Shown piece by piece: positions 5,357 through 27,961 of a stretch of 64,000 nucleotides of DNA. The number at the start of each line of letters is the position of its first letter. The first letter of the stretch is position 1. A program made the translations under genes and the position numbers. The stretch is from Bolinopsis microptera (taxonomy: Eukaryota > Ctenophora > Tentaculata > Lobata > Bolinopsidae): the NCBI RefSeq assembly GCF_026151205.1, contig NC_087074.1:7068001-7132000 (forward strand), read 5' to 3'. The notes under the pieces are model-generated. The model was not told the origin of the DNA and made no database searches. It saw only the letters and a program-made list of their open reading frames with translations.

Positions 5357-5960
5357 TTACTTCTTCATCATCATCACAAACTCTTCACAGTCGACTTCAC
5401 CGTCCCCGTCAACGTCAATCTCTCTTATCATGTCGTCCACTTCGTCGTCAGTCAACGCCTCCCCAAGATTCAGCATCACGTGCCGTAATTCACGCGAGTC
5501 TATCGTACCATTACCGTCCTTGAGTTGATCAGTTTTTAACATATTCAAACGATTTCATAAATTCGACTATCATAAATTGTGCATTAACGCGAAAATTGAA
5601 ACATTCCATTAAACAGGTAGAAGAGTAAATATATTAAGTCGTCAGTACCTTGTCAAACATCCGGAAAGCTTGTCTAATGGACTCCTCGGAGCAGGAAGAA
5701 AACAACATAGCTATCACCGACAAGAGCATATTGAATGACACCTTGCTTTGCGAATATATGTGTAAATGTTTGAAAATCTTCTGCATCTCCTCTGGTGACG
5801 GATTGTGTCCCAAAGCCCGTAATAGAGTTTCAACACTATCTGCCCTGATACATTCCCTATCTTGTGGAAATAAATTGAACGCTTCCCTGATCTCTGAGAG
5901 CTGCTCCTCAGTGAATGATTCGTGAATCTTTTCAGTATCGTTGTCGGTCTTCTTGGACAT
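5357..5960 (-). CDS. Calmodulin-like EF-hand protein with a degenerate N-lobe
   Basis: Two exons on the minus strand: 5960-5649 (104 codons) and 5518-5357 (53 codons plus stop), joined in phase 0 across a GT-AG intron at 5519-5648. The product has 157 residues, the size of calmodulin or troponin C. The junction completes EF-hand 3 as [12 protein letters not shown] (residues 103-114); EF-hand 4 is [12 protein letters not shown] (139-150). Both are canonical Ca2+ loops. EF-hands 1 and 2 keep the helices ([25 protein letters not shown]) but have lost the acidic ligands ([24 protein letters not shown]), so only the C-lobe should bind calcium. The MSKK start is chosen because it sits a calmodulin-like distance before the first helix; an in-frame Met at 6038 is possible. 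The target is unknown. Confidence 0.88.
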
Positions 5961-6240
5961 AGCGAAATGAAAAAAGGGAACTAGAAAGCAGCGCCTGATC
6001 ATCGTGCAATTGCAAATTCGAAATCGCTCCTTCACCAAAATTACGGGCCTGTCACAGCAAAAGAAGTTATTGTGCGGAACGCGCGCATATGTTTCTCAAT
6101 GTAAAGTTAATATTTTACGCGTCGACCGTGACATAAAGTACAAATATAAATCTCGTTTTTTTGCTCTTAAATCATTCGTTGAACACAATTTGATATCTCA
6201 TAATTTTAACGAAACTGTATTCAAGGAATGGTTTTAAAGG
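5961..6240. promoter_or_regulatory. Possible bidirectional promoter between divergent genes
   Basis: This 280 bp gap separates the start codons of the minus-strand calmodulin-like gene and the plus-strand receptor gene. It must hold at least one 5' UTR or promoter if both first-exon calls are right. An AT-rich TATAAATC lies near 6145. Its promoter role is inferred from position only. Confidence 0.3.
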
Positions 6241-6307
6241 ATGGTTCTAAAGACGAACTGGTTTACTTCACTGATAGTCCTCAAGCTACTTTGTCGCTTT
6301 TCACACG
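6241..6307 (+). CDS. Receptor exon 1: candidate signal peptide
   Basis: The exon opens with ATG and encodes a basic start followed by a hydrophobic stretch ([12 protein letters not shown]), then RFSH. A donor (CACG|GTTGGT) leaves phase 1, exactly what the first SUEL exon at 6550 needs, and the hybrid codon reads Ala at a plausible cleavage site. The donor is weak compared with the GTAAGT sites elsewhere in the gene. The fit of frame, phase and hydrophobicity supports the call; a transcript would be needed to confirm it. Confidence 0.5.
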
Positions 6308-9300
6308 GTTGGTCAATGGTCAAGATATTACTACGAACTGTTATTGGCTATCGCTCCCAATTCTTTGCGGTACTATCCAAGCAGCCCGACCACGATAGTG
6401 GAATTCCTCGAAGTGGAATATGGTTAGGGATACGGTTATAGTTACGCCCGGTTAGGGTTACAGTTTAATGGTTAGTGATAGCGGGTATCTGTTGTGATGT
6501 CCAAGTATATACATTTTTGGAATTTCTAACCTTTTTTATTTTGTTTTAGCAATAACAAAGCAATTATGTGAAAAAGATACACTGCAAATCGATTGTGACT
6601 GGGGGGAACGAATCGAAATAAAACACGCTGCTTATGGTATTTACTCATCAAAAAACCCTTGTGGAATATCCTACAGGAAGAATTGTGTCGATGAATTGCA
6701 GCCATTGAAGGTGATGTTCGTTATTTCTGTTTCGATTTGATTTCGTGGGACAGTACTAGTTTCGAATATGAACTTAAGAACTCTCAAAAGCTAGACCAAA
6801 CTAATTAGTGCGTCCAAGTTAAGGTTAATTTTAATGGAATAAGAAATTTTAACAAATGCTTTAAAGATTAGAAGGAGGACATTTTAGGCGTGCTTTCTGA
6901 TTCTACAGTCAGAATTACAGGTGATGTCATCTGCATGCAATGGCAAACTGCATTGCACCGTGGAGGCAAAAAATGATGTATTCGGTGATCCTTGTAAAGG
7001 ACATAAAAACTACTTGACTGCAACTTGGATATGCAAAAAAGAAACAGCAGGTATCTGATGTGATGTTCAAGTAGGCAAATTTATAGAATTTCTAACGGGA
7101 TAGATTTTAAAACCGCATCGGTCGCGCGAACTGCAACCATTCTCGCTCAGATTTACATCGATGAACGACTGTATCATTATGGAACATCTAACCCAGGATT
7201 GGGATTTTCAGTTAAAGAATGTATTGAGGGAAGCGATCCCACCGGGAAGAGATACAGAGGAACAACTGCAGTCACCGAGTCAGGAAGGAAATGTCAGACC
7301 TGGAGTGTCCAACGTCCTAATAAACAAACAACATTTAAAGAGTAAGTATGTCCGTACATCATTAGATAGAGGAGTTTCTTTTTTTTTATTGACAAAACTG
7401 AACTATCCCGGTTTTAAAAAGTGTGAAGTTGAAGGACATAATCCCATCTGTAGCAAAGTCTACCCAAAGAAAAACCCGTCCGGGCAGAAGCTCACCTTAA
7501 CCCAAACTCTAACCCAAATTATGGTACTACCTGGAATCCTAATTCTCAACCCTAACTCTAGCATTAACCTTAACTACTGAAACCCTAACATGAATGCAAG
7601 CGACGAAGTTTATATTTTGCGAAGGCGGGGTGGGGAGAGAGATAGATGAATAATGATATCTTTCATGTTTTGTAGCTGACTGTCGATAGTAACAACTCTG
7701 TTTACGTACAGGTATCCTCAAGGTGGACTCGAAAAGAATTATTGCCGTAACCCGTAAGTGTTCAACTATAATGCTAGTTGTGACAATTGAGTATTCGGTT
7801 TGAATATAATATTTCTGATTTCTGACGATAGTTTACAATCAGCATATTGTTGTAAAAGACTGATGTAACGTACAAAATAAGTAAATATTAACCTTCAAGC
7901 TTGCAGTGTAGCGTAAAATCAAATGTATGCATTTTGTTGATCGTGTACATTACTTTGATCGAGATGTATCTATTAAGGACTTCTTCGGGTTTGCGTCCGT
8001 GGTGTTGGAATGGAGAAGGTACGGAACCGACGTGGGAATACTGTGATATAAAAATATGCTATGATAAAAGTAAAAGTAAGTTTGTCCATTACATACTATT
8101 ATATACTATGGTAGCTTCATTTTTTCCCTTTTCATCTCCCAGATTCCATGTATGTTTTGTCTCTACGGCGCTCTTCCTTAGAAAATGAAATAACCAGGAA
8201 GAGTTCTTTAATTACGATAACAAATGAAGCATTTTAAACTTCGCCATTTGCATTTAACCATTTTATTTTATTTTAGCGATTACAAAGAGAGTATGCGAAA
8301 AAGATGCACTGCAAATCGATTGTGACTGGGGGGAACGAATCGAAATGAAACACGCTGCTTATGGTATTTACTCATCAGAAAACCCTTGTGGAATATCCTA
8401 CAGGAAGAATTGTGTCGATGAATTGCAGTCGTTGAAGGTGATGTTCGTTATTTCTGTTTCGATTAGATTTCGTGGGCCAGTATATTAGTTTAGAATATGA
8501 ACTTGAGAACTCTCAAAACATGCACCAAAATAACTACCTCACAAGACTTTTTTGTGGCGGACCAATTTGCGACGACCGAAATTTTGGCGGTCCGAAAATA
8601 TGGCGAAATTGAACAAAAACCGTCACATTTCGGATGTCACAGAAAATAAGGGTATTTTTCATCATTTTGTTTTCTGACACAAAGGAAATTCAAAATTTTC
8701 TAAAAATCGGTAAAATCATGTTGAAACAAAATGAAACTTATAAATCGATTTCTTCATCTTCCTCTATACTTAAGGGGTCCGGCTCGACTCTTTCAGTTTC
8801 ACGCTGTTCTCCAGTGTACTCCCAGGAGTAAGATTCTCGGATAAGCGTATTACTTGACATTAAATTCATCATGGAATATTGTGTTTATTTGTCCCACCGT
8901 CATATCACTAACTTTTCAAGAACAAAATGAATCGATGAAGCCACAATTATTGGAATGAGCTAAAAATAATGCGACGGATTCTATTACGACGACCGAAATT
9001 TTGGCGGTCCGAAAATATGGCGAAATTTCGGGAAAACCGTCGCATTTCGTACGTTATGAAAAAGTCTTGTACTGGTATTCCTCTTAGCTGCTAACAAATT
9101 TTAACTCTTGCTTTAAAGATGAAAAGTAGGAAATGTTAGGCGTGTTTGCTGATTCTCAGTTCTATAGTCAGAATTACAGGTGATGACATCCGCATGCAAA
9201 GGAAAACAGCACTGTACCGTGGAGGCAAAAAATGATGTATTCGGTGATCCTTGTAAAGGACATAAAAATTACTTGACTGCAACGTGGATTTGCGAAAAAG

Positions 9301-12300
9301 AAATAGCAGGTATCCGTTGTGACATCAAAGTAAGCACATTTTTGGCATTTCTAACAGGTTAGATTTTAAAACTGCACCGGCCAAGCGAATTACAATTATT
9401 ATCGTTCATATTGACTGCAGTTAACCGCTGTCAGAAATATCTAACCCAGGATCGGGATTTTCAGTTAAAGACTGTATCGAGGAAAGCGATCCTACCGGGA
9501 AGAAGTACAGAGGAACAACTGCAGTCACCAAGTCGGGAAAGCAATGTCAGAACTGGAGTGTTCAGCGTCCTAATGAGCACACCACAACATCTGAAAAGTA
9601 AGCACATATTTTTAACCAAACCCAAAATTTGGTAGAGTGAACACTGAACCGTCGCCAGTGTCTCCTTTTTATTTTCCAAACAAATGGAAATTATGTCAAT
9701 TTAAATTACCGTTCAAATTGTGACAACTCAGTTTGAATGACATCCCTCACAAGTAGAGTTACGTAGTGTGGTCACCGGACGTGAGATATGTCCCACATCT
9801 CTCAAGTTCGCTCGCGCTGAACACGCTACCTGACTCTACTTGTGAGAGATGTCATGGACTGAGTTGCCACAGTCTGTTCGTACCCTTACGAATGCAAGCA
9901 AAGAAGTTTATATTTTGCGAAGGCGGGGTGGTATGAAGTGATATGAGGAAAGAGATAGATGAATAATGGTATCTTTCATGTTTTGTATCTGACTGTCGAT
10001 AGTAACAACTCTGTTCCCGGAACAGGTATCCTCAAGGTGGACTCGAAAAGAATTATTGCCGTAACCCGTAAGTGTTCCAGTATAAATTATAATGCTAGTT
10101 GTGACAATTGAGTATTTCTGATTTCTGACGATAGTTTACAATCATCCAACTGATCGTTTTGAGATACAAAGACTGATGGAACGTACAGATGTAAATATTA
10201 ACCTTTTAGCTCACAGTGTAAATGTAAGCATTTCGGCGATCGTGTACATTTCTTTGATCGAGATGTATCTATTTAGGGCTCCTACGGGCACAAGTCCCTG
10301 GTGTTACAATGGAGAAGGTAAAGAACCAAGATGGGAGTTCTGTGATATTAAAATATGCTATGATAAAAGTAAGTTTGCCATTTATTAATCTACAAGATAC
10401 CATGCCAGCTTCATTTCTTATCCTTTTCAACTCCTAGATTCCATGAATGTTTTTCTCGCTATTTATTGGAAAATTAGATAACCCGGAAGTTTCCTCAATT
10501 CAGCGATAACGAATGAAGCATGCGAGGATAAACTTTTGACTATAGAATGTGGATGGGGACAGGATATAAACATTCTGCACGCTGCATATGGTGTGTACTC
10601 AAATGGAAACTCTTGTGGATGCTCCCGCAAAAAAGGGAGTTGTCTCGCCAAGGACTCCGTTCAGGTAATGAAACAAATATTATATCTGATTTTCATGATA
10701 TTTGGATATGATGAACAGATATTATTATCCGATCAAGATGTTGTCATCATTGTTTACAAGAATTTCTTATTCGTTCGAATTAAACATCTCTTGAAAATAA
10801 GAAATAAACTCCTATCGCGTCGTTGGTGTATTTAGTATTATCATTGCTAAATCCTACATGCATATTATCTGGAAAGCATGACGTTAGAAGAGAGGAGACA
10901 AATTTGGAGCATGAGCTCTTCTGGGGTAACATTATTATTTTTCTAAGATACATTTTGAAGCATTTGAAAATCACAGTGCTGGAGAGCACAACCGTCGGGC
11001 GTCTGTCATTATACCCCCTTTACTATATACTATTATAATACCCCTTTACTATTTTTCCTTCATTTAGACTCATCAGAAGTCATTCAGCAGGTTTATTTTT
11101 AGTTCAAAATATTCTAATTCTGAATAAGAAATAGCTATATTTTTAAGAAATTTGCATAAAACTCGCGCCAGCACTGTTACACAAAAGTATAAGATAGCAG
11201 ACAGAAAACTTGTTAAGCACAGTTCTTAAGTCTCTACCACACCTTCAACCATTGAGATCACGCCGGGGTTGAGTCTGTTAGAGACCATTGCACTGGTCTT
11301 AGATTTGTGGCTGATTTGATAGTTCGTTCGGAATCTTAATGTTAAAAAGTAAAACAACGAATTTTATATTATATTTTTTGAAGCGATCAAATTATAGTGA
11401 TCTCACTAATCTATTATTAATAATAAGATACCTAATATCATATTTATACCCTCTTACACCTCTTACAGTGGTAAATGTAACTAATTTAATTGCCCTGCGT
11501 AGTGGGGAATAAGCAGTGCATAAAAACTTGACTACTAGTACACACAACAAACTGCACACTGCACAGACACATCTAAAAAATGTATCTCCAAGTTGGGCTA
11601 TGAGTTCCAACTTTAGGTACATATCTTATACGAATACAATAAGAATAGAAATAAAAAATGCTGATTTAACCGAATAGTTTATCTGGGTATCACTTAATCT
11701 AAAGAAGTCCTGCGATGATGGCGACAGTTCCTCCGAGCAGCTTAGCTGCTAGTCCCGTATGCACAGGTCCGTGCTGCAATAGGCTGCCTCGCATTCCCAA
11801 TTTTTCAAATCCGCTTCTTTGTAACTTTCTTTGACCGCGGCGCACGCAATATTATCCACTGCCTCATTCCTCATGGTACAGGTGTGACCCTGCACCTTCC
11901 ACCATTAGTATTTTTGAGAGTCCCGACGAAAATGGCCAAATTCTCATTCTCAAAAATTATTTTTGAGTATTTTTGAGACAAGTTTCCAGGAGAGGCGAAA
12001 AACGGGGGGGATGCAACGACCATTAATGTCAGTAGATGGAATTTTGTCAAAACTGACATTGTCATTAATGGTCATTAATGGTCATTAATGGTCATTAATG
12101 GTCATTAATGGTCATTAATGGTCATTAATGGTCATTAATGGTCATTAATAGTCATTAATGTCCAAGAAATTTACAATTATGATCACTTTGTATCACTTCT
12201 ATAAAGTTTCTCACAGCCCCCTACATCGATTGCCAGAGTCTCGTTTGAGAAAACGAATTAATATTCGCCTAATAGAGGCTCGGACCTCGGTTTCGGAATG

Positions 12301-15300
12301 AGTGCCAAGCACCATTCTGTTATACGTTGGTAACTTGTCTTGTCTGTTTGCTTGTTTGCATTTGACTTAGTATAAATGCTTGTTTGCAGTTGACTTAGTA
12401 TAAATGCTTGTTTACAGTTGACTTAGTATAAATGCTTGTTTGCAGTTGACTTAGTATACATGCTTGTTTGCACTTTGCGTGGATTTGAATTGTATTGATT
12501 TCCTTTATTTGTGTTGATTGCTTTTGATAATTTGGATTTTCAATACCTCCTCACAGTACCTTCTATGCCATCGTAAGACGATATTTGGAAATAAAAGTCG
12601 GAGATCGAAATTTTTTGATACCGGCTGTTTCGAGGGTTCTGTGCCATACCAACCGGGCTGCAAAAATTCTTCTAAGCCCTGTCAACGTCGAACAATTCGA
12701 AAGGGCGACTCATTAAGTGCTACCTTTGTTCCAAAAAATGCTAAACGTCCCCTTCGTTGCCTCGGTACCATCTTACTATATATAAAGCGAGACGATATAT
12801 TTATATTTATCTGTGCCATTTTACTGACACCACGGCATCAACTTTAACACGACTTTCCGCAAAAACCGTAAAAGATATACAACTGAAACTTTTTTGACTG
12901 GGTCAAATGCTTTAATGGCCTTCAAATCAGCATGAAAAAATAAAAAATTGGCCAAGAAATAGGAGTTTTAGAGCCCAAAATTTGGACCCCCAAGTGGTGT
13001 CAAAAACGCGAATTAAATAGGTAATAATTATTTTAGTCTCTTGATTCTTGACACCACTTTAGGGTTAGACGGGTTCCTGCTAGTCTTATCAATGAGTGTC
13101 TCTGCTTCAAAAAAGGGCAACTGCAGATCTAGACGAATTCCTGCCGCATCAATTTGTCCCTATCATGATGACAGTGCTCGATTTTGGGTCAAAACTTTAA
13201 ACTGCCAAAGGCAGAGTATTGAACTGTAAACGAATTGTTCTATCTAATCCTAGGAAAAGATCAGCTTTTTTGTTGTCCGATTCAGACTGATGACGATGTA
13301 TTTCATGAAGTGCTAAAGTTGAATAAGTTCATCTACTGTGTAATTACTATATAATCGACTAGCATAATGATTTGGCTAAAATATAAATCTTGATATGATA
13401 TAAGAACGGGAACGAAGTATTTAATTTTAATACCCGTGTTATTATTATTTTATTATTGATTGTTATTTTACTATTGATACGATCTGATACTCCTAAATTG
13501 CCCTTTGAATTATTATTATTGATAACTATAAGTCACCAACTGTTATCTGGTTTAAATCCCGTGGCCGCAAAATTTGTTCTTCATTACATTCGAACTTAAT
13601 AAATGTAATCCCTAACTCACTCTGGAATCCACTCAAGTGATATTCTGGAAGGTCTGCCTAACCACGGAAGATTCTATTCTAAGTTTTCTCTTTCGAATCT
13701 CTAATTGTAAATGTAAAATAATAACATATACTTGTAGTTAGTTAACTTAAGGTAGGGTCTAAGTGATGCAGTGAATTTTGACAAAACTGACATTGTCATT
13801 AATGGTCATTAATGGTCATTAATGGTCATTAATGGTCATTAATGGTCATTAATGGTCGTTGCATACCCCCCCCCCCCCCCCGAAAAACTCATTCTCAAAA
13901 ATTGATTTTGAGTATTTTTGGACCACATTGCACTGATATGAAGAATGAATGATTTAGTTTAAAGTACAGACAGATCCGTCTAAAAAATCGATCTGCCGAC
14001 ACACAAAGCTTATAAAGGATTTTTGACGTTTTTTAGTCCCATTAGGTGCCCTTTATGGCTGACTAACTTTTCCAAACTTTTCTACGTGTCTTAAGGCTAC
14101 TTTTTGCCACTTTACCACTTTTTACCACCTTTCTTGTTTGTCGAATATCTTTAGAGTTTAGTTGTGAACATCGTAAAAGGTTGCAGATTAATCAAGGGTG
14201 TTCATATTATCTATATCAGGAAGAAAATCTTTTGTACAGACAAGTTTTACGTCAGATAATCAGTTAATTGGATAATTATCAATTAGCTAATTAGCAAACA
14301 ATTTTTATTGGAATATTGTAGATTAAAACACGGAGAAAAGTAGTTTTCAGGAAAAAAAGTAGTTTTGACGAAAAACGTTAACCACAGGATATCAGAGTTT
14401 CATAATTAATTCATATTCACATTAATACGAGAATCTATGACAATGTTCCCAAAATGGTCGGCGTGGTCAAACCTTCTACTGTGACTTATGATTGCTTCAC
14501 ATTGCGTTTTAGCATGCTGCAAAACTAATAAGCGGTGCAGGTGTTACTGTTCCGACAGATAGATTCCAGTTAACCCCGAGGCAATCGAATAGTTCTCTTG
14601 CATGCGAAATATAGAATAATAGATTATAGAATTGTGAAAACGTGTTTCTTAAACTCACAATCTATGTTTACGGATAACTACATGCATTATCATAATAATC
14701 ACTATGAAGGTCTAGATATTAGGGGGGAGGGGCAACACCCTGCCACACTTATTCCCCAATTGTTGGTCGAATGGGTATCGATGGAGTTTCTTTTCTTTAT
14801 TTTTTTAGATCAAACAGCCTCGTCTCCTATGGCATTTTCATTCTTATCTGCCGCATTGTTGACTAAAGCCACTGGTTGTTTTTCACTTGAGGCACGCTTT
14901 TCAGGATCGAACGAGAGCTTTGAACTAAAGAACGTTTTTAAGAGATCTCCAAAGCATTTTAGGAAACACACTGTAATCTTTACAAGCACAACACAAATCA
15001 CAATCAAAACTACAGCGTTACGAATCAAATCTACAACGGCCGTTGTAACGGTATGAACGGTTGTAAAAACTGTGGAGCCAAAAACGCTAAGCTGGCAATC
15101 GCAAAATGCTTCAGAATTAACAAGGTCTAACTTGGTATATCCGCACTTGCAGTCTTGGAACACTGAACTAGGGCAGTAGACATCAGGATCTGTTAGTTCT
15201 TTCATTCTCTGTTTGTCCTCCATGTTTTTTGTTCCCCTAAATGAATAACAGTAGGTTTCCTGGTCATAGTATTCTTCGTTGTTCTTACTACAGAATGATA

Positions 15301-18300: not shown

Positions 18301-21300
18301 TAACGTTGCTACGCAACAGCGCAGTAAACCTTTGCTAAAATAACGACATTATTCTAACGGTTATTTTACCTCACTTCCGACGTTAATTATAAAAAATCTA
18401 AAGCCTAAATCAAAATTCTAAGAATGCTATAGCCTATTCCTATCCTTTTTCTACAACCCTGCTAAAAATGGCGAGGTTTCAACTCCATTTGCGAGCTGGG
18501 TTTGATTTCACCAGAGGGTCATTTTGAGGTCGATTTTCGGTGTTTCTTCTTCTATGTCCCCGTTGCCGGGGAAATTTCGTCAAGTTTAAAATATAATATA
18601 GATAATAACATAAATGTTAACATTAATGGGTATTAATGTATATTAGAGAAATTTTGAATAATTTTGAATAATTTTGAATAATTTTGGGGAATTTTGGGGA
18701 ACTTTGGGGAGTTTTGGGGAACTTTTTTTTGGGGAACTTCAGAAATCTTGGGGGACTTTCCCAAAGTTCCCCAAAGTTCCCCTTGGACCCCCCCTATAGG
18801 CTAGGTACATAGGTAGTTGGCACTACTATACTGTTCTCCGGCCGTCCGCCGTAGCCCGGTGTCAATCTGAAAAATTAGCATGTTCAAGTCTCTGAGAAGA
18901 AAAAGTGGAATCTATTCTATATTTCCTCATAGATTGGAGGCAACTGCCGTCTTTCAGAAGAGCTGATTAGAGAATAGAGCTCTTATGTTTCACGATACTT
19001 CTGAACTGCTGCCTGAAGAGTTTACTTGTTTATGAAAGGGACTGAGCAGTAAAACCTCTTTACTCCTGAACTCCACACTTTTACTCTTTGTGTTTTGGTA
19101 TTCCATCTAAAAAGCTCATACGACATACTGATTACTGAACTACACCTTTTTAGATGATTCGAGATGTATTTTTAATTCATTCCATACTGTAGCTATTTGT
19201 ACTCGGTGAAAAAATGTTCACTGAAAAAACACTGTAATCTTACAGATAGTGGCGAAGAGATGTAACGGGTATCGTATCTGTACTGTTCCAGCGACTAACA
19301 AGATATTTGGTGAACCTTGTAAGGGGAAAAAGTACTTGGTTGCGACGTGGTCTTGTTACAAAGATACAAGTACGAGTTATATTAGTTACATGTTTATAGT
19401 AGAACATAATACCACAGTCACGAAAAATTGACCGCTCAATTTAAAGTTTAAGCGTACTTCTATTGTTATTTTCGAAGATTTAGCGTACACATTTTCGCGG
19501 CTGTGGTACTTGTAATGGTATAGCATACTTAGGCCATTCCAGTTCAAGAATAACGAATTTTCCTCTCTGAGTTTTGACACACTAATGGCGCAATGCGCAG
19601 GGTGTTTTGAAAAATACTTATAATGAATTATAACGAAATTAAAAGGTTTAATATTTCAGAGCAGTCTTGCCTCCAGGAAGATGATCCTATGGGAAGGAGC
19701 TACAGAGGAAAAACAAACAAGACCAAATCGGGAGAGATGTGTCAGAGATGGGACTCTCAGTACCCCAATAAACACGACTTTACCCCTGAAAAGTGAGGGA
19801 ATTTGATGACTAGTTTGAAGCTTCCTACTCAGTACTTCCGCTTGTGTTAATTTAAATTCAATGTGCAACATTTTGTGCTATACAGTATACACGCTTGTGA
19901 CTGGGAGGTTAACAGTGTGATACTATCAATGAGAGAATGAGTGTTGTTTAGTAGGGTTATAAGCTACCTTCCTCACAGTTGCAGTAGACTAGTCACATAC
20001 TTGCTCACTCTTGAACATGACAAGATGTTCATCATTGTATTTGTCACATTGATTAATTAAATAGCACAGTTTGTTGAATTATTGATTTAAATACGACACA
20101 TACTATTACTAGTAAAAGATATTGTATTCAGGTTTCCAACGTCAGGACTAGACAGTAACTATTGCCGAAATCCTCTGGGGTAAGCTGATTTCAAGAATCA
20201 AGATCCCAAGCATATCGATTATCGTTGAACTGCCAGTCTTTCAGTTGCTAAATTCGAAACATCACTTCTCATAATCAAGTGTTAAAGTGGTTGTATCGGT
20301 GATATGCTAGTCCCAAGTCCTAACCATGATAACCAACGGCAACGAATGACTTTTCCAGGAAAGATGTCTCCGTTCCATGGTGCTATTTTGCCAAGTCTAA
20401 GGGGAAAGAATGGTGTGATATTAGAAACTGCTCCAAATCCGGTGAGCTGGCCACCTGAATCACTCGATCGTTTAATTTGATCGCATTAAAAGCCAGGCTC
20501 CCTCAAATCCCACGTTTATACCATTACCGCGTTAGACTTATTTTCCAGATGCGGTCAAACGATAAGTTGAATTAAATTACAAGACTAATTCAACAGTGGA
20601 CTTTCATTGAGCAAAATCACTACCTTTTGGAAGGAAAGTATTTGTAATAATTGTATTCGTGAAAATAATGTACAAATTAATTTTCAGATTCTACCACCAC
20701 AACCGTGGAAACTTGTGAAGGGGGGACACTAAATATGAAATGTAAACCTCCGTATATTATGGAGATAAAGGACGCCTCTTATGGTGTTTGGAGTAACCAC
20801 AACAGTTGTGGTGCATCTTACAATGGAAAGTCAAAGTGTCATAATCCTGATTCCTTGAAGGTGAGATTTTTACAATGGCTGTATTTATATTGTAAAAGTC
20901 TGAATTATTTACAAACTCATTGATTTAAATGTTGATGAGATGTAAACAAATGCTCTCTTTTTCTGAGACTTCTTTTCTGGTGACTTGTATCGATTCGTTT
21001 GAATTGCAATACTAAAGACTATTACAAACAAATCTGTATCTGACTAAAAGTGTGCACTAACACAACATCTTTCCCAGATAGTGAGGAACACGTGTGCCAG
21101 ATACCATAAATCACGCAGGGAATGTACAACTTGGGCCTCTAAATTGAACCCCTGGAATATGCTCTATTTCAGGGATCCCTGTCCTGGGACGGAGAAATAT
21201 TTGAGGGTTTCTTGGGATTGTTACCGAGATCCAGGTTATTAATAGAATATTTAGCAGGTCACTGGTGTAATTAGTTGCAATTAACCGTAATGATCTGGTT

Positions 21301-24300
21301 TAATGAAATTGATATAATAATCGTGGTAGGGAAACGTTAAAATATTATTTTCAACTGTGGATATTATGTAAAAATATTAGTATGTTTTAGACATGCAATT
21401 TTCCGTACACACTCTGGTTCCGTACACACTCTGGTTCGTATTTCGGTCCGTATTTGTGTATATATATACTCAAATATACGGTGTATATATGGACACGTTC
21501 ATTTGAGTTTGAGGATATTGGTAAATATAAGTGACCCTATTAAAAGGCACAGTGTAGTTGACTTTGTCACACTATGAAATTACACAAACCCTTGATGGTT
21601 AGGATAATCGTCTCATCCTCTAGGCTAACTTTGTCACTTAACGATATCTTAATCAGCTGATAAGATATCGCTTAAATACGGCTGGCACGGAAATGGTTAC
21701 ATTGTCACACTATAAACATGTGACGGAGTAAATATGGACCCCTTGCTGCCGTTTTTGACCAAATTTTTGAGTGTCCAGTTGATTGGATGGGTACATATGA
21801 CCATTACCTACATATTTGACGAGTTTTTTCGTTAGATGGTGCACTCAGGTTTACTCTGTCACAAATTTAAGAAAACATGTGAAGAATGTTTAGGGCACCC
21901 TGATAAGCAATGCTGAGTAGTGTAGGTTTATTTGATGGCCTGGAAGTGCTAGGAATTGTTATTATATCATATAGTCGTAAGGAATTAAAACACAGAAGGC
22001 ACAAACAAGTTTACTTTGTCACATAATCTTGATGATATCTGAACATGTGTGAAATTGAACAAATAATGATATACCAGCTTAAACCCCTTATATTACGTAC
22101 TATGGATCAAACAACACTGCTAGTACCACGCACCAGTCACATAAATCATTATCGGGTGGTAATATGTTAGCAGTGTCACAATTAAACTACCGCAACATGG
22201 TCAAAAATAGGGTAATTTCGTCACAAATTATTATAACTCTGTTAGCTCCTTGCTGGCAAAATAACTAGTTCATTGATGATAAAGTTACATAGTATTCTAA
22301 TAGAGGTATAGCTCTTCAAAATAGGGGCAAGACATGTTTACTTTGTCACATCAGTTATTATAAGAGTTAAGTAATCGTCATCAGATTAACAGATCTTTTT
22401 CGTAGTTTGGATCGATTAATATAGGCAACAGAGCATCCTATGCCAATTTTAACACACTATCTTGATATTGTTGGGGCAGGGAAAGTAAATTTTGTCACAT
22501 TTTCAGCGTCTTTGACAAATTAATCTAAAATTGTTAAACTTGAGCTCTGATGTTCTGGACAATATTCTACCAATCGTTTCTGAAAGAATGTTGAATTCTA
22601 ATAGAGTTACAGATCTTCAAAATAGAGGCAAGACATGTTTACTTTGTCACATCAGTTATTATTAGAGTTAGGTAATCGTCATCAGATTAACAGATATTTT
22701 TCGTAGTTTGGATTGATTAATATAGGCAATTAAGCATCCTATGTCAATTGTTAATTTTAACACACTATCTTGATATTGTTGGGGCAGGGAAAGTCAATTT
22801 TGTTACATTTTCAGTGTCTTTGACAAATTAATCTAAAATTGTTAAACTTGAGCTCTGATGTTCTAGACAATATTCTACCAATCGTTTCTGAAAGAATGTT
22901 GAATTCTAATAGAGTTATAGATCTTCAAAATAGAGGCAAGACATGTTTACTTTGTCACATCAGTTATTATTAGAGTTAGGTAATCGTCATCAGATTAACA
23001 GATATTTTTCGTAGTTTGGATTGATTAATATAGGCAATTAAGCATCCTATGTCAATTGTCAATTTTAACACACTATCTTGATATTGTTGGGGCAGGGAAA
23101 GTTAATTTTGTTACATTTTCAGTGTCTTTGACAAATTAATCTAAAATTGTTAAACTTGAGCTCTGATGTTCTAGACAATATTCTACCAATCGTTTCTGAA
23201 AGAATGCTGAATTCTAATTGAGTTATAGATCTTCAAAATTGGGGCAAGACATGTTTACTTTGTCACATCAGTTATTATTAGAGTTAGGTAATCGTCATGA
23301 TCAGATTAACAGATCTTTTTCGTAGTTTGGATTGATTTATATAGGTAATAAGGCAGCCTATGCTAATTTTTACACACTATCTTGAAATTTTTGGGGCAGG
23401 AAAAGTTAATTTTGTCACATTTTTGGTGACTTTGACAAATTTAACCTAAAATTGTTAAACTTGAGCTCTGATGTTCTGGACAATATTCTACCGATTTTTT
23501 TCTGAAATAATGTTGAATTCTAATAGAGTCATAGAATATATAGATCTTTAAAATAGGGGCAAGACATGTTTACTTTGTCACATCAGTTATTATAAGAGTT
23601 ATTATAAGAGACTATTTCATGCTATAATCATTGTTTTTAACCTATTTACGATTTCGTATCATTTTTTGTGACAATGTAAACATCAACTGATCTTAACTTG
23701 CATCAACTACATTGTCATCATGTAAAGTTTTCCCGCCTTTCAAACCAAAAACAGATAAATAATTCGCCCAAAATTTAAAATTCCATATATTGTGACAGAA
23801 TTAACCTCATTTCCCAATAACCAAGTTCCTGTATTAGCTAACTATTCGAAACAACATATTTTAGGGCTATGATTGGTAGATCAACCATCAAATAATGAGT
23901 TAAAAGGTTTTTGAGGACACCTCACAGTAGAATAGAGGTTTGGTATTCTGAGTGTGACAAAGTTACCCAAATATTGCCTTGTAACCGTTCGATCCGTGCC
24001 CTTTAACCAATGTTGTATCATAATTGTTAGATTGACCTAATCTACTATATTTTAGACCAAGGAATGATAATTAGACAACTGCAGTTAACTAAGTCACACA
24101 AAATGTGACATTTGAACCATTATAGTGCCTAACAACAATAGATTTTCTTTCTGAGCAGTGCATATGGGAGTATGGGTTACGTGGCTAATGTTCAGAACTT
24201 CTGAACGTGCTAGGTTAATAGATGTCAAAATTAAGCCACTATCGTCGAAAACGCTATCATTTTTGTTTACCAATATCCTCAAACTCAAATTAACGTGTCC

Positions 24301-27300
24301 ATATATATACCGTCTACATCGCTTAAATTTCTCAGAGTGCCACGAGGAGAAAGATCGTATAGGAGCTAAATACAGAGGGACAAAATCCGAGACTAGAGGA
24401 GGATTTAGCTGCCAAAGATGGGACCTACAATCTCCGCATAAACATAACACAACTCCTGAAAAGTTAGTCCACCTTTAAAAGAGCTGTGTTTTTATCAAGC
24501 GCTTAAAATCTGAGGAAATTAATGCATGTCTCCAAGATTTGGAATATATTTTGACATCTAGACAGGTACAGAATGTTAAAAAGCTTTCAGTAATATACTA
24601 CTACTACTACTATGTCGGAACTAAGTCCGATCTACGCCAGGTAACCCCCTCCATATATCCCTGTCCCGCATCAGGGTTCGCAGTTCCTCTATAGAGTTTG
24701 TCCCAACTTCCTTCAGTAACAGATATAGTAGTTTATAATGAGCCTCTTGGCATTTAACAAGTGAGTCTGATTTGTGATTGTTCGTAATTTCAACACACTG
24801 GCAACTATCCATTTATTTCAGTTACCCAGATGCAGGTCTATTGGTGAACTATTGCAGAAACCCCAACAAGTATGCGTTCCTCAATCCTCATATAGCCTTG
24901 TCTAACCCAAAAAATAGGCTGACTTCTCATTTTCCAGTGTTGAATCACTTTCATCAATTCGTTTATATTATAAAATGGAGTGGTAAATTTGAATGCCCTC
25001 ATTTTGAAAGTGTTAAGATTTGATCTTCTCAGAGCTGGGTTTCCCTGGTGCTACATTGGTAATGGAACGGATAATGACCCAGTGTGGGATTATTGTGACA
25101 TACCCGAGTGTTCCTCTGGCCGTGAGTTCTTCTACCTTATCAGACTTTATTTGAAAGGACATTTATTGGACGCGAGAGGCCCGAGCGTTCATTTTAATGT
25201 CCGTTCAAAATTATGTTCGTTCATGCAATGTCCGGTCAAATAACGTCCGATAAGGTACTTCTAATCAATCAATCATCTATCATTCAAATGTTTCAAAAGA
25301 AAGTTTTATCAGTCTATGATACAAGAATTTTTTAAATCACTTCATTTGTAATATAAATAACTCCATCCATTTGTCAGGTGCGAGCTATGAAAAGATAACA
25401 GAGGTAGATACGGAGCCCCAGAAGTCCTTCTACCCATACCACCTTTCTGTTTTAGTTAAGGTAGTTGAGAAAACCTCTCTTCGCGATTTTGACAAATTAG
25501 AGAGTTGTAAAATCTACTCCGAAGAGCACAGGTGTTCTGACGGTGATTACTTTCTTATGGAGTTCTCTTACGACATCAAGTCAGGCAGAGTCTTGTGAGT
25601 AATAAAACATTTAATTAATTTAATTATTTAATTATTTATTTTAATTACTTTAATTACTTTAATTAATTCAATTATTTTAATTACTTTAATTACTTTAATT
25701 ACTTTAATTACTTTAATTACTTTAACTAATTAAATTACTTTTAGTAATTCCAAAATTGACGTATGTATTTATTATTATATTCAACTCGGATTGATTCATT
25801 GATAGTATAATTACAATAAATTACACTTTTTTAAAATAATAATATCAAGATAATTCCTTAATTTACCATAAATTGTTGAAAGGAATACTTCCTCAGATTC
25901 CACTGGGAAATAAGATACGGCCCTCTAGTTACTGAGGACATGACAGAGGACTGGACAGACTCTGGAACCGACTTTATTAACGATGTAACAAACTTGGATA
26001 TACCTTACAAACCTCACGAAATAAAGAGTCTATCTGTTGAGATAAACTTTCATTCAATGTTGGTGCTAGTAGATTACAAGCCTGTTAAAGAATACATCCT
26101 AAACGGAGACTACTTCCCGTTTAGACGGGGCCGAATACAGCCACGTGGACATTTGAATCTGGAACGGTGTCGGACTATAAATGTTAAAGGAAACTGTCTC
26201 GCAAATCCGTGCAGGTTCTATACTGCACACAAGTTCCATCGCTACTTGAAAACAGATAAATGGCACACATTAGATGATGATGAAGAACATAAATATGCGG
26301 ATAATAATAACATCACGCGTTGCATGGCTATAGACAGGTTTGAGTGTAACACGGGCTTCTGTCTCCAGGGTCGGTGTAAGGCCACTGACTTCGATCACGA
26401 CGTTTGTGATTGTGATGATGATGATACCTGGTGGGTTAATGAGAAGAACATGATGGGAGAGTACTGCTCCATTAAGAAGAAAGAGGAGGTGGAGCAGATT
26501 GTCCGCTGGACTCAGGGCTACGAGATAGAGGTTAATTTCCATGAGAATAAGATTGAAGTCGATCTGGTCCCCAACTTTAAAGATTGGTCCTGGAGATATT
26601 ACTTTGTTAGATTCTACGAGATTGATTACAGCGCTGATGGAATTTCCCAATCTTTAGTGCACGCTGCTAAGAGTCCTACGGAAGGACTGCCGGCAGGAAT
26701 CGGTTACTCGTTTATATTTAAGGGAGCACTCTCTAACACTACCTATCTCATCGGTACTTACGGCAGGAAGGATCTCGACGCTAAAAACACGAAAGAGCGT
26801 TCCTTCCTGCACACTGTGGAGGTTCACACACCAGGATACTCGTATCTACCTGCACCCACTGACTTGATCATAGAACCACTACCTGGTAACCTGTTCAAAC
26901 TGTCGTGGACATACCAGCACGATCTACCTGCCTCAGAGTTCCTCATTAATATCACCTCACCAAATGGGGTGGTGGAACAGGAAGTTGCCACTAAAAACCA
27001 CGAGGTGCTGGCTTTGAGGAGTAGTACCTCTTACACTATCATTGTTGTGAGTTTGAACCTTATTGGAGATTACAAGTTTGTGTCAGCCCCTCTTCAATAC
27101 ACCACTCCGTTCTTCAAGTATGATGAGAAGATCGTCGGATACTATGATTTCGCCAAATGGTTTTTCAAAGTTAACACGATCACCCTTGATGGTCGTTTTG
27201 TGTACTTCAAGAATCCTGTGAGAAGAGATACTCGTGTTGACCGAGTTGTACTCATGTGTTCTTACACTAACGAATCAATCGAACAAGACTCTAGTCAAAA

Positions 27301-27961
27301 TGGTAACTCCACGGAATTGTACTCCTCCGTTTACCACGCTGCTCGCTTCAACAAGTCGTACTTCGACCATCCTCCTCTGAGCCCCTACGTCACTGCATCC
27401 TTCACAACCACACCCCTACCTCGACGTTTACAAATAGGAGATCGGTACATCTACGAGACCTATTTGAACGGGGAGATAGATAAGGAGTTTATTTACCAGG
27501 TTTATGTTATAGTGTGGTACACCTCTGGGCAAACAGCTGATGTTTCCGTACAGTATCTCGGGGAGATAGAGCTGTCCAAGATACCCTGGGTTATTATATT
27601 CGTGAGTGTTGCAGTGGGAGCACTGGTTCTCACAATCCTCACCGCCATCTTCAACTGCTGTTTTTATCAGCTCATGCTGGCCCACCGCCAGAAACAGGTT
27701 GAAATGTTGAAAGGTAAAATGTCTGTTAGATCCCTGTTAGTTGAGGATATCTACATGAACGCTATTCTGCCGGATCCTGATTACGATATGACCAAATCTA
27801 CTCAAGATCTGGGGAGTGATACTGATAGTGCCGTGAATTCCGAAGCTGCGGGTAGGGATAGCCAAAGTGATCGATCTCAGCCTGAACAGAGTAACTCCAG
27901 TGTATTTGTAAGAAAAGTATCATTACCAAAGAGAAGGCACACTTTTACGAGGGTTAATTAA
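6241..27961 (+). CDS. SUEL lectin-kringle single-pass receptor, 23 exons
   Basis: The gene predicts a type I cell-surface protein of 1536 residues. In order: signal peptide (about 1-22); SUEL1 23-119; kringle1 119-209; SUEL2 210-306; kringle2 307-395; SUEL3 396-490; kringle3 491-578; SUEL4 579-688; kringle4 689-776; LamG-like 780-915; EGF-like 960-1045; FN3 1168-1253; helix 1411-1438; cytoplasmic tail 1439-1536. All 23 exons join with GT-AG borders and compatible phases, and their 4611 nt equal 1537 codons exactly. Every module border is a phase-1 intron, the class suited to domain duplication. SUEL domains bind sugars such as galactose or rhamnose in known lectins and kringles bind proteins; a recognition or adhesion role here is inference. 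The tail has no kinase or phosphatase domain. The signal exon is the weakest part. Confidence 0.85.
6550..8075 (+). CDS. Receptor module 1: SUEL1 + kringle1 exons
   Basis: Exons are 6550-6710, 6921-7050 (SUEL halves), then 7212-7341, 7712-7753 and 7978-8075 (kringle in three pieces, the middle one 42 nt). The SUEL carries the family hallmarks AAYGIY and [16 protein letters not shown]. The kringle has all six cysteines, with hallmarks [21 protein letters not shown] and PWCW. The lysine-binding Asp-x-Asp that usually follows RNP is replaced by TSSG, so lysine binding is unlikely. Phases run 1-0-1-2-2-1. The last acceptor is AAG, where module 2 has TAG. Confidence 0.85.
7494..7590 (+). repeat. 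Degenerate CTAACC-type repeat in kringle1 intron
   Basis: Several copies of CCCTAAC/CCAAACTCTAAC variants lie in the intron between kringle1 exons. They resemble interstitial telomere-like repeats but are too degenerate to call telomeric. Confidence 0.4.
8277..10368 (+). CDS. Receptor module 2: SUEL2 + kringle2 exons
   Basis: Exons are 8277-8437, 9180-9309, 9465-9597, 10026-10067 and 10277-10368. The protein and much of the intron sequence are nearly identical to module 1 (the 42 nt kringle exon is the same base for base), so this is a recent tandem duplicate. Its first intron carries an inserted MITE and its kringle intron a foldback, neither present in module 1. All six kringle cysteines remain. 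The site after RNP reads APTG, again without the lysine-binding acids. Confidence 0.85.
8541..9070. mobile_element. MITE in SUEL2 intron, TIR ACAAGACTTTTT
   Basis: The 530 bp element starts ACAAGACTTTTTTG and ends with the inverse (AAAAAGTCTTGT). Just inside each end is a direct copy of a roughly 42 bp block (CGACGACCGAAATTTTGGCG at 8569 and again near 8988). The equivalent intron of module 1 (6711-6920) is otherwise alignable and lacks it, so it entered after the duplication. It contains no transposase frame. I could not define a target-site duplication, so the superfamily is unassigned. Confidence 0.75.
9719..9872. mobile_element. Foldback element, about 50 bp arms, in kringle2 intron
   Basis: The left arm (TGTGACAACTCAG...ATGACATCCCTCACAAGTAGAG) is the near reverse complement of the right arm (CTCTACTTGTGAGAGATGTCAT...CTGAGTTGCCACAG). 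The two enclose a loop of about 55 bp. The matching intron of module 1 lacks it. It could be a short MITE or a solo foldback. Confidence 0.7.
10504..20441 (+). CDS. Receptor module 3: SUEL3 + kringle3 exons, split by an 8.6 kb intron
   Basis: Exons are 10504-10664, 19246-19369 (SUEL halves), 19660-19792, 20132-20179 and 20359-20441 (kringle). SUEL3 reads [13 protein letters not shown] in its first half and [15 protein letters not shown] in its second. The kringle keeps [25 protein letters not shown] and WCDIRNC. This module is clearly diverged from modules 1 and 2. The phases match (0 inside SUEL, 1 at the borders), which supports joining the two SUEL halves across 8.6 kb of repeat-rich intron. 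Confidence 0.78.
10665..11698. other. Start of the 8.6 kb receptor intron, no feature recognised
   Basis: AT-rich intron sequence. A short T/C-rich direct duplication (TATACCCCCTTTACTATA then AATACCCCTTTACTAT) lies near 11010-11055. I see no exon or repeat family otherwise. Confidence 0.4.
11699..11889 (-). pseudogene. Ly6/uPAR-like C-terminal exon relic, 1-base frameshift
   Basis: On the minus strand, after an acceptor at 11890-11892, one frame reads a cysteine series (HTC, IAC, WEC, YC, DLC) that ends YCSTDLC, very like the last finger of Ly6/uPAR domains. An adjacent frame then continues as a small hydrophobic tail ([18 protein letters not shown]) and a stop, which looks like a GPI-anchor signal. 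Between them one base appears to be missing, near 11760, right where the family's invariant Asn would follow the last Cys. This fits a decayed GPI-anchored Ly6-like protein nested antisense in the receptor intron. A base-calling error could also explain it. Confidence 0.4.
12051..12160 (+). repeat. 10 bp minisatellite GGTCATTAAT, first array
   Basis: About ten near-perfect copies of GGTCATTAAT follow the unique leader GTCAAAACTGACATT. The leader recurs before the second array near 13770. An inverted fragment of the unit with a G-run (CGGGGGGGATGCAACGACCATTAATG) sits just upstream at 12004-12030. Confidence 0.9.
12350..12475 (+). repeat. 28 bp tandem repeat, about 4 copies
   Basis: Four direct copies of a unit containing GCTTGTTTGCAGTTGACTTA followed by GTATAAAT, with single-base differences (GTTTAC; ATACAT). 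It lies in intronic DNA with no open frame through it. Confidence 0.85.
12771..13083 (+). mobile_element. Non-autonomous Helitron-like element, copy 1
   Basis: The 313 bp element begins TCTTACTATATATAAAGCGA and ends GGGTTCCTGCTAG. It is flanked by A on the left and T on the right, matching the Helitron rule (5' TC, 3' CTRR, insertion between A and T). A second copy at 46517-47569 shares both ends and most of the interior. I did not find a strong 3' hairpin and there is no RepHel coding, so it would be a non-autonomous member. This copy shows the uninterrupted interior. Confidence 0.75.
13774..13885 (+). repeat. 10 bp minisatellite, second array, with C-run
   Basis: It has the same leader (ACAAAACTGACATT) and the same GGTCATTAAT unit as the array at 12051, here about seven copies. 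It ends in GGTCGTTGCATA and a run of about 15 C. The following AACTCATTCTCAAAAATT also occurs near the first array, so a larger repeat carries the minisatellite. Confidence 0.88.
13886..14809. other. Receptor intron, no gene recognised
   Basis: AT-rich sequence with no exon signals matching the receptor phases. Apart from the tail of the minisatellite-carrying repeat at its start I see nothing definable. Confidence 0.35.
14810..15441 (-). pseudogene. Nested cysteine-rich membrane protein gene, broken by one frameshift
   Basis: Antisense inside the receptor intron. It starts at 15441 with a clear signal peptide ([20 protein letters not shown]), then Cys-rich sequence ([13 protein letters not shown]). 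At 15320-15333 an A8 run next to G5 (minus strand) shifts the frame. The downstream frame continues with [35 protein letters not shown] and FCDCQLSVF, a membrane helix ([14 protein letters not shown]) and a charged tail ending at 14810. One change in the homopolymer would make a single secreted/type I protein, so this is either a young pseudogene or a sequencing slip in an intact gene. The first Cys motif is loosely Ly6-like; the family is not recognised. Confidence 0.55.
15600..17395 (+). mobile_element. Degenerate LINE (non-LTR retrotransposon) relic
   Basis: Pieces in changing frames keep the order of a LINE ORF2. An endonuclease end reads [12 protein letters not shown] (near 15875). A linker with WFDAEC (16272) follows, then [13 protein letters not shown] (16671). 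The reverse transcriptase blocks are [28 protein letters not shown] (17029-17070) and [13 protein letters not shown] (17217), then [13 protein letters not shown] (17337), where ADD is part of the catalytic motif. Stops and frameshifts break it several times, so it is inactive. The pattern suits the CR1/L2/Jockey side of non-LTR elements; the clade is not resolved. Confidence 0.85.
17737..18799. mobile_element. Foldback/MITE element with G-rich TIRs, TA-flanked
   Basis: Both ends are TATAGG-G-run-TCCAAGGGGAACTT in inverted orientation (about 17737 and 18799). The TA at each border could be the target duplication of a Tc1/mariner-type element. The subterminal zones (17755-17935 and 18650-18785) are dense in GGGGAACTT/AAGTTCCCC repeats on both strands, so the element can fold on itself at several points. 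There is no transposase. Its low-complexity open frames are not genes. Confidence 0.75.
20688..25121 (+). CDS. Receptor module 4: SUEL4 + kringle4 exons
   Basis: Exons are 20688-20860, 21078-21234 (SUEL halves), 24336-24462, 24822-24869 and 25033-25121 (kringle). A Thr-rich linker (DSTTTTVE) precedes SUEL4, whose second half is longer and more basic than the others but ends with the family pattern [16 protein letters not shown]. Kringle4 has [25 protein letters not shown] and YCDIPEC, with the six cysteines in place. A 2.8 kb TIR element fills the intron before the kringle and stops 22 bp short of its acceptor. Confidence 0.82.
21478..24313. mobile_element. 2.8 kb TIR element rich in TGTCAC motifs, in kringle4 intron
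   Basis: The left end at 21478 (ACGGTGTATATATGGACACG, then TTCATTTGAGTTTGAGGATATTGG) is matched in inverse at the right end (24268-24313) with few mismatches over about 45 bp. The interior has no open frame but carries some twenty TTTGTCACA-like motifs and a 308 bp tandem repeat. The TIR plus subterminal motifs point to a non-autonomous DNA transposon. I could not find a target-site duplication. The right end lies 22 bp from the kringle4 acceptor. Confidence 0.7.
22310..23590 (+). repeat. 308 bp tandem repeat, about 4 copies, inside the TIR element
   Basis: The phrase GGCAAGACATGTTTACTTTG recurs at intervals of about 301, 308, 308 and 315 bp (positions near 22326, 22627, 22935, 23243 and 23558). 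The spacers are closely similar and each carries GAGCTCTGATGTTCT and two TGTCACA or TGTTACA motifs. The inner copies are the most alike, as expected for recent expansion. Confidence 0.9.
25135..25255. mobile_element. 121 bp foldback element with CCTTATC ends
   Basis: It begins CCTTATCAGACTTTATTTG and ends CAAATAACGTCCGATAAGG, flanked by TA. Inside are repeated (A)TGTCCGTTCA words and GAGGCCCGAGCGTTCA. The same ends and words form the TIRs of the element at 46546-47287, so this is a short relative, lying in the intron just after kringle4. Confidence 0.7.
25378..27961 (+). CDS. Receptor stalk, membrane helix and tail exons
   Basis: Exons are 25378-25594 and 25897-27961. The first part ([20 protein letters not shown]) has the strand pattern of a LamG-like sandwich. 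A Cys-rich segment with [11 protein letters not shown] and CDCDDDD...YC follows and looks EGF-like. A clear FN3 domain starts at APTDLIIEP (from 26852), probably preceded by a second, weaker FN3. A membrane-proximal region with NxS/T sites leads to a helix ([17 protein letters not shown], from 27581). The 98-residue tail contains YMNA (Tyr1468; a pYxN Grb2-type SH2 consensus), an acidic Ser/Asp stretch, RKVSLP (fits R-x-x-S-x-P, 14-3-3-like) and RRHTF (basophilic kinase site). The motif roles are consensus matches only. Confidence 0.85.
25600..25745 (+). repeat. (TTAATTACTT)n AT microsatellite
   Basis: Runs of TTAATTA and TTAATTACTT in the last intron of the receptor gene. It is simple-sequence DNA with no coding signal. 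Confidence 0.9.

Follow-up and report, generated by a model that had tools for sequence, protein, structure and literature searches.

What would a gene encode in which lectin and kringle domains take turns, and how might such a gene have been put together? The question is raised by a locus of the ctenophore Bolinopsis microptera that lies in a stretch of 64,000 nucleotides (RefSeq assembly GCF_026151205.1, contig NC_087074.1, positions 7,068,001 to 7,132,000 of the forward strand), called here the window and numbered from its first letter. A preliminary description of this DNA, made from the letters alone, had read positions 6241-27961 as a receptor gene with four SUEL lectin and four kringle domains in alternation. 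Our analysis confirms the observation of one gene with the order (SUEL-kringle)x4. What we propose for its product, judging from sequence features, is a type I receptor for recognition or adhesion that would bind glycans multivalently and is encoded by this single ctenophore gene, a reading to which we would give a probability of about 0.55.

Four SUEL-kringle pairs in one reading frame

When the first 777 residues of the predicted protein were compared with Pfam (hmmscan), the Kringle family (PF00051) was matched in four stretches with 263.7 bits (E 8e-80, cut-off 34.3) and SUEL_Lectin (PF02140), also in four, with 159.8 bits (E 2.1e-47, cut-off 31.4). All four kringles have six cysteines, and SUEL1 to SUEL4 have 8, 8, 9 and 8. 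Among solved structures SUEL1 matched the rhamnose-binding lectins 5h4s (6.4e-38), CSL3 (2zx0, 6.8e-21) and CSL2 (9vwi, 7.5e-14) and, after them, latrophilin-1 (2jx9, 3.6e-8), and kringle 1 matched plasminogen (4.6e-76) and HGF (2.6e-48), the ROR1 kringle being matched as well. Profiles of our own, built from the window domains themselves (for the kringle together with three other kringles), are circular as to identity and show the order of the domains and the lack of others. Run over the six frames of the window, they recovered SUEL half-exons (8) and pieces of kringles (12), every one of them in the receptor gene and on the + strand, with two SUEL pieces followed by three kringle pieces four times over along the gene. 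No further SUEL or kringle modules were found elsewhere in the 64 kb, where the leftover profile matches reached only E 0.24 and 0.54. The alternation of four SUEL and four kringle domains given in the preliminary description is confirmed.

The splice model was rebuilt from the raw sequence and comprises 23 exons on the + strand between positions 6241 and 27961, with 4611 coding bases that give 1536 residues and a stop (1537 codons), no internal stop, and agreeing phases at the joints. Our own choice of splice sites thus led to exon and codon counts identical to those described before. All 22 introns are GT-AG, 12 of them with a GTRAG donor and 21 with a YAG acceptor. The exon boundaries were picked so as to keep the frame, so that the open frame by itself is not an independent proof; independent support for the gene model comes from how the domains score in Pfam, from the recurring exon layout and from the way substitutions are distributed. 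The weakest joints are that of exon 1 (donor GTTGGT) and the donor of exon 13, for which there are two in-phase options 6 bases apart. The exons are the following.

6241..6307, + strand: exon 1, with the start codon and a segment resembling a signal peptide, phase 0 to 1; the least certain exon
6550..6710, + strand: exon 2, SUEL1 half 1 (splice model, Pfam, own profile)
6921..7050, + strand: exon 3, SUEL1 half 2 (splice model, Pfam, own profile)
7212..7341, + strand: exon 4, kringle 1 part 1 (splice model, Pfam, own profile)
7712..7753, + strand: exon 5, kringle 1 part 2 (splice model, own profile)
7978..8075, + strand: exon 6, kringle 1 part 3 (splice model, own profile)
8277..8437, + strand: exon 7, SUEL2 half 1 (splice model, Pfam, own profile)
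9180..9309, + strand: exon 8, SUEL2 half 2 (splice model, Pfam, own profile)
9465..9597, + strand: exon 9, kringle 2 part 1 (splice model, Pfam, own profile)
10026..10067, + strand: exon 10, kringle 2 part 2, with the same sequence as exon 5 (splice model, own profile)
10277..10368, + strand: exon 11, kringle 2 part 3 (splice model, own profile)
10504..10664, + strand: exon 12, SUEL3 half 1 (splice model, Pfam, own profile)
19246..19369, + strand: exon 13, SUEL3 half 2, after an intron of 8581 bases; alternative in-phase donor 6 bases downstream
19660..19792, + strand: exon 14, kringle 3 part 1 (splice model, Pfam, own profile)
20132..20179, + strand: exon 15, kringle 3 part 2 (splice model, own profile)
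20359..20441, + strand: exon 16, kringle 3 part 3 (splice model, own profile)
20688..20860, + strand: exon 17, SUEL4 half 1 (splice model, Pfam, own profile)
21078..21234, + strand: exon 18, SUEL4 half 2 (splice model, Pfam, own profile)
24336..24462, + strand: exon 19, kringle 4 part 1 (splice model, Pfam, own profile)
24822..24869, + strand: exon 20, kringle 4 part 2 (splice model, own profile)
25033..25121, + strand: exon 21, kringle 4 part 3 (splice model, own profile)
25378..25594, + strand: exon 22, beginning of an ectodomain region with no recognised family, earlier called LamG-like (splice model)
25897..27961, + strand: exon 23, remainder of the unassigned region, cysteine-rich stretch, borderline FN3, helix, tail and stop

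Does this frame belong to one gene or to two? SUEL3 straddles intron 12, and exons 12 and 13 hold complementary halves of this one domain, which ties the first part of the gene to the second across 8.6 kb and argues for one gene. At the other end of the array, exons 1-21 might instead encode a secreted SUEL-kringle lectin and exons 22-23 a separate membrane protein; reading through the donor of exon 21 adds 40 residues before a stop is met, which would permit a soluble product, and exon 23 lies within an open frame of its own of 693 codons. We nevertheless consider such a division unlikely, since kringle 4 is followed by an intron of just 256 bases (intron 21) with a GTGAGT donor and a CAG acceptor, phase is kept both there and across the 302 bases between exons 22 and 23, and no second start leading into a signal peptide was noticed ahead of exon 22 (no systematic search for one was made). 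With a single gene, as we prefer, the stop 40 codons beyond exon 21 makes a soluble splice form ending there possible.

Intron 12 contains two other features. Positions 16883-17278 (+ strand) hold a reverse-transcriptase fragment (RVT_1, 34.2 bits), a retroelement remnant that may help to account for the size of the intron; positions 14810-15478 (- strand, antisense to the receptor gene) hold an open frame of 222 codons that is rich in cysteines, includes a hydrophobic stretch and matched no Pfam family up to E 0.01. In intron 18 (22144-23601) a repeat of ca. 300-308 bases occurs about five times in direct order. Upstream of the gene there is a weak EF-hand-like frame (5637-6095, - strand; 18.1 bits, cut-off 30) oriented away from it; by eye the two starts are ca. 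280 bases apart, and perhaps they share a promoter. Downstream, at 30159-30515 (- strand), lies a protein-kinase-like fragment (Pkinase, 24.2 bits, cut-off 31.7).

Cassette duplication and relatives in the genome

Each of the four SUEL-kringle pairs starts and ends in phase 1 and is divided into five exons with the phases 1-0, 0-1, 1-2, 2-2 and 2-1, and copies of a cassette entered and left in phase 1 can be added with the frame intact. Between pairs 1 and 2 identity is 88% in the SUEL and 77% in the kringle, and in their DNA the five exon pairs are 79-100% identical and the four intron pairs compared 60-88.5%. Over 185 codons the non-synonymous divergence (dN) is 0.090 and the synonymous one (dS) 0.325; the resulting dN/dS of 0.28 indicates that the amino-acid sequence of the two pairs has been constrained by purifying selection. 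Pairs 1 and 2 are recent duplicates, and the other pairs, with 35-51% identity and dS >1 or saturated in the remaining comparisons, are old. Identity between the two recent pairs varies along the cassette: exon 5 has the same sequence as exon 10, and the introns after them agree at 88.5%, while exons 6 and 11 agree at only 79% and so are less alike than these introns. This unevenness may result from gene conversion.

A tree was made of 15 SUEL domains, four from the window and 11 from nine loci of the same genome, no locus giving more than two split domains (the SUELs at C2, C4:8.55 Mb, C8, C11 and C12:1.11 Mb were left out). Its only firm branch unites SUEL1 and SUEL2 (99/99), other joins being weak and some branches long. 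A kringle tree of 12 rows, four from the window and 8 others out of 154 matches, had no firm branch at all. With trees this weak, a common origin of all four pairs is neither proven nor excluded. The introns of pairs 1 and 2 also differ in length, intron 7 exceeding intron 2 by ca. 530 bases, and a pair of 80-base direct repeats (84% identical, spaced 417 bases, positions 8567-9063) sits within the excess; the extra segment is perhaps an insertion that postdates the duplication.

Are there comparable genes in the same genome? A search of the whole assembly (264,652,675 bases in 232 contigs) with PF02140 gave 45 matches, which we grouped into 15 loci. At twelve of them 9-10 kb were examined, and longer stretches at C1 (21.5 kb), at C2 (23 kb) and in the window (64 kb); the flanks came to ca. 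2-7 kb, so that remoter kringles would escape, and both arrays on chromosome 12 (see below) were covered in part. Within these stretches a kringle was detected near a SUEL (own profile, E <0.001) at 3 of the 15 loci, namely the window gene, C1:20.76 Mb and C2:14.24 Mb, and the alternation of the two domains in the window gene only. The C1 locus, with one SUEL and one kringle, and the C2 locus, with two SUELs and one kringle, have the appearance of other mosaics; by eye, the latter also has LDLa-, MAM- and WSC-like stretches. Kringle matches in the genome number at least 154 (150 of 327 candidates were scored). At C8:14.419-14.431 Mb (L009, L018) three open frames carry two kringle matches apiece over 12 kb, and these are among the best non-window matches to the window module (47-52% identity). 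Two scans of viral contigs gave nothing that could be confirmed.

On chromosome 12 SUELs are arrayed with another partner, TSP1 (TSP_1, 54.5 bits). One piece, at C12:8.24 Mb (L017, 1232-9998), has 6 TSP1 and 6 SUEL domains in 10 kb with a gap of ca. 3 kb, and the other, at C12:8.59 Mb (L025, 64-9877), has 7 TSP1 and 8 SUEL domains in 10 kb, each on one strand. The near-identical units are mostly ca. 1 kb apart and alternate mostly but not strictly, with one SUEL-SUEL neighbour pair per piece; these arrays are possibly giant rhamnospondin-like genes. Taken together with the window gene, they show SUELs arrayed with a partner cassette at more than one site of this genome and with two partners. 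The SUELs are split near profile position 50 of 92 in the window, in both chromosome-12 arrays and at C4:4.82 Mb, C5:10.04 Mb, C6 and C7, and unsplit at C1, C5:6.99 Mb, C9 and C11. In this genome the ionotropic glutamate receptor channel family was also matched 32 times, several of the matches being clustered (C3:15.86-15.94 Mb and C12:11.78-11.81 Mb). For one ionotropic glutamate receptor of the genome the best solved match is ML032222a (PDB 5cmc, 5cmb, 4yki), a protein of the ctenophore Mnemiopsis, and a 118-residue piece of ML032222a has a copy here with 80% identity, in keeping with a ctenophore genome.

Helix, tail and predicted ligand sites

The layout of the predicted protein resembles that of a type I receptor. 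Near the start there is a signal-like segment, judged by hydropathy and by eye, with a hydrophobic core of 11 residues (mean 2.16) at residue 8. A single transmembrane helix is found at ca. residues 1411-1434, the sole hydropathy peak above 1.6 (19-residue windows starting at residues 1406-1426). Beyond it comes a tail of 99 residues with serine-rich stretches and tyrosines at 1439, 1468 and 1478, the second of them in the sequence YMNA, a YxN motif of the kind that we take to be bound by Grb2-type SH2 domains; no Pfam domain was recognised in this tail. The one membrane helix and the tail with a YxN motif were thus correctly described before. In the C-terminal 759 residues fn3 is the sole Pfam family, with 20.7 bits when they are searched as a whole, while a 96-residue piece (domain at ca. 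residues 1167-1247) scores 25.0 bits (E 2.3e-5), the cut-off being 25. The FN3 domain claimed earlier is consequently a borderline one, at the cut-off in the short piece and below it in the larger. Among the other pieces the first listed one family, CYLD_phos_site at a chance-like E of 0.24, and the second and third none. Solved structures gave weak matches only (best E 0.1, mostly FN3 proteins), and no second copy of this half was found in the genome: searches at E 1 with residues 778-1046 and 1251-1536, and at E 0.001 with all of exon 23, returned the gene itself only, though weak matches can escape.

Could the SUELs bind sugars? The contacts common to CSL3 and latrophilin-1 are Glu7, Tyr27, Gly83 and Lys86 in CSL3 numbering, to which CSL3 adds Asn74 and Asp79 (PMC3269628, accessible part). 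Aligned to CSL3, all four SUELs of the window retain the Glu, Tyr and Gly; the Lys86 position is Lys in SUEL4 and, hinging on gap placement, in SUEL3. The first three SUELs also retain Asn74, which is absent from SUEL4 with its insertion at this place. As they retain the core contacts, SUEL3 and SUEL4 would be likelier lectins than SUEL1 and SUEL2. For the kringles the comparison is with the lysine site of plasminogen kringle 1, formed by Asp55, Asp57 and Arg71 (docking study PMC8036777, accessible part). Kringles 1-4 have Thr/Ser, Ala/Thr, Leu/Lys and Asn/Ala at positions 55 and 57, so that neither aspartate occurs in any of them, and the arginine is found in one of the four (kringle 2). With both anionic residues missing throughout, plasminogen-like lysine binding was set aside; the kringles are probably spacers or protein-binding units.

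We picture the receptor as follows; the frame, the order of the domains, the symmetry of the exons, the purifying selection between pairs 1 and 2 and one hydrophobic helix are shown by the sequence, and membrane topology, sugar binding, biological role and signalling are inferences. Its outer half would consist of the four SUEL-kringle pairs derived from the phase-1-flanked cassette, and its inner half of an orphan ectodomain with one FN3-like domain, the helix and a short tail that lacks a recognised domain. The SUELs, chiefly the third and fourth, would have a weak affinity for terminal rhamnose- or galactose-like sugars, and avidity for glycan-rich surfaces, be they microbes, mucus, egg coats or neighbouring cells, would come from the array. 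The kringles would space the lectins or bind protein partners rather than free lysines, and the tail might pass a signal on via phosphorylation of tyrosine or serine.

Several observations weigh against this picture. The single receptor gene is a prediction from genomic DNA. The core of the candidate signal peptide, which was judged by hydropathy and eye, holds a lysine. The LamG-like and EGF-like regions of the preliminary description have no Pfam support, no such family being found in these pieces up to E 10 (filters drop most matches above ca. 0.1), and both labels should be dropped for the present. As to sugar binding, the Lys86 position is Asn in SUEL1 and SUEL2; in SUEL3 the lysine depends on where the gap is placed and the Asp79 position is Glu. 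The YGR and DPC motifs are conserved in almost all SUEL-type domains (PMC3269628, accessible part); YGR is found in none of the four SUELs (YGI, YGI, YGV and YGV), and DPC in three of them, SUEL3 having EPC. With YGR lost and DPC mostly kept, the assignment of the domains stands and sugar binding is uncertain. The "sugar-binding units" of the earlier reading are consequently supported by the four core contacts in SUEL3 and SUEL4 and not in the first two, and its cell-surface receptor is supported in the layout (signal-like start, pairs, one helix, YMNA tail) and by half in the binding of sugars.

It could even be asked whether the gene is degenerate or silent, an array left over from exon shuffling with dead lectin sites, as the missing lysine in SUEL1 and SUEL2 and the interruption of SUEL3 by a long intron with a reverse-transcriptase fragment would fit. 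We find this very improbable in view of 1536 stop-free codons and of the dN/dS of 0.28 between pairs 1 and 2. Less easily dismissed, if still doubtful, is a component of matrix or mucus, in which the glycan-binding cassettes would adhere or cross-link and the helix would merely anchor the protein or be shed. Such a role would agree with the highly repetitive SUEL-TSP1 arrays and the other SUEL and kringle mosaics of the same genome, and with a tail in which Pfam recognises no domain; however, 99 residues with Tyr1468 (YMNA), Tyr1478 and serine-rich stretches exceed what an anchor needs.

Known SUEL and kringle proteins

How does the proposed receptor compare with described proteins? Kringles occur in single-pass membrane proteins such as KREMEN and PIK3IP1; these two and ROR1/2 have one kringle each, partnered by Fz and kinase domains in ROR and by WSC and CUB in KREMEN. 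The window protein is like ROR1/2, KREMEN and PIK3IP1 in having kringles within a single-pass membrane protein; the ROR/KREMEN type was rejected, as no Fz, kinase, WSC or CUB match to Pfam was found in it. Plasminogen, apolipoprotein(a) and HGF resemble it in having several kringles per protein and are among the closest solved sequences, but the window protein has no protease match, its kringles are spaced by lectins and they lack the Asp55/Asp57 pair.

On the SUEL side, EVA-1 (EVA1C, C21orf63) has two SUEL domains, a single helix, a short FAM176 tail and no kringles. The SUEL ectodomain, one helix and short tail are shared with the window protein, in which there is no FAM176 match, and EVA-1 was rejected; a genome-wide search for FAM176 also gave no match, nor did it in any of 14 control genomes. 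Latrophilins (ADGRL) likewise carry SUEL in a membrane receptor, and SUEL1 aligns with latrophilin-1 at 3.6e-8; they were rejected because the window protein has one helix and no OLF, HormR, GAIN/GPS or seven-transmembrane match to Pfam up to E 1. Rhamnose-binding lectins (CSL3, 5h4s) are close to it in the sequence of the SUELs, and each SUEL of the window has at least three of the four core contacts. They consist of SUEL only, with YGR in most (PMC3269628, accessible part), whereas YGR is lost in all four window SUELs.

SUEL is in fact known from latrophilins, EVA-1, PKD1-like proteins and rhamnospondins; the rhamnospondins of Hydractinia are secreted, have a serine-rich region, eight TSP1 repeats and a C-terminal SUEL, and are predicted to act in immune recognition (PMC3269628, accessible part). 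They are like the window protein as invertebrate mosaics of SUEL with a repeated small extracellular domain. In place of eight TSP1 repeats and one SUEL, however, the window protein has kringles in 1:1 alternation with SUELs and a membrane helix, and the chromosome-12 SUEL-TSP1 arrays are closer to rhamnospondins than it is. With no TSP1 match and one transmembrane helix in the window protein, this identity too was rejected. A search of the literature, with most subscription papers and animal proteomes outside its scope, found unrelated co-mentions and no SUEL-kringle protein, and within the literature so covered the alternation is an undescribed combination. The main text of PMC12549020 names neither kringles nor SUEL nor rhamnose, and in that of PMC11797021 the word kringle is absent. 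To call it an undescribed system, as the preliminary description did, is an overstatement, given that SUEL mosaics such as latrophilin, EVA-1 and rhamnospondin are a known theme (PMC3269628, accessible part). The novelty is in the combination of domains and not in the kind of system, each part being familiar.

Two familiar domains in alternation show how phase-1 exon cassettes can build new recognition surfaces, and the receptor proposed here is a discrete gene that can be put to the test. Should its lectin units recognise sugars of microbes or gametes, a receptor class would be added to those that serve recognition in early animals.

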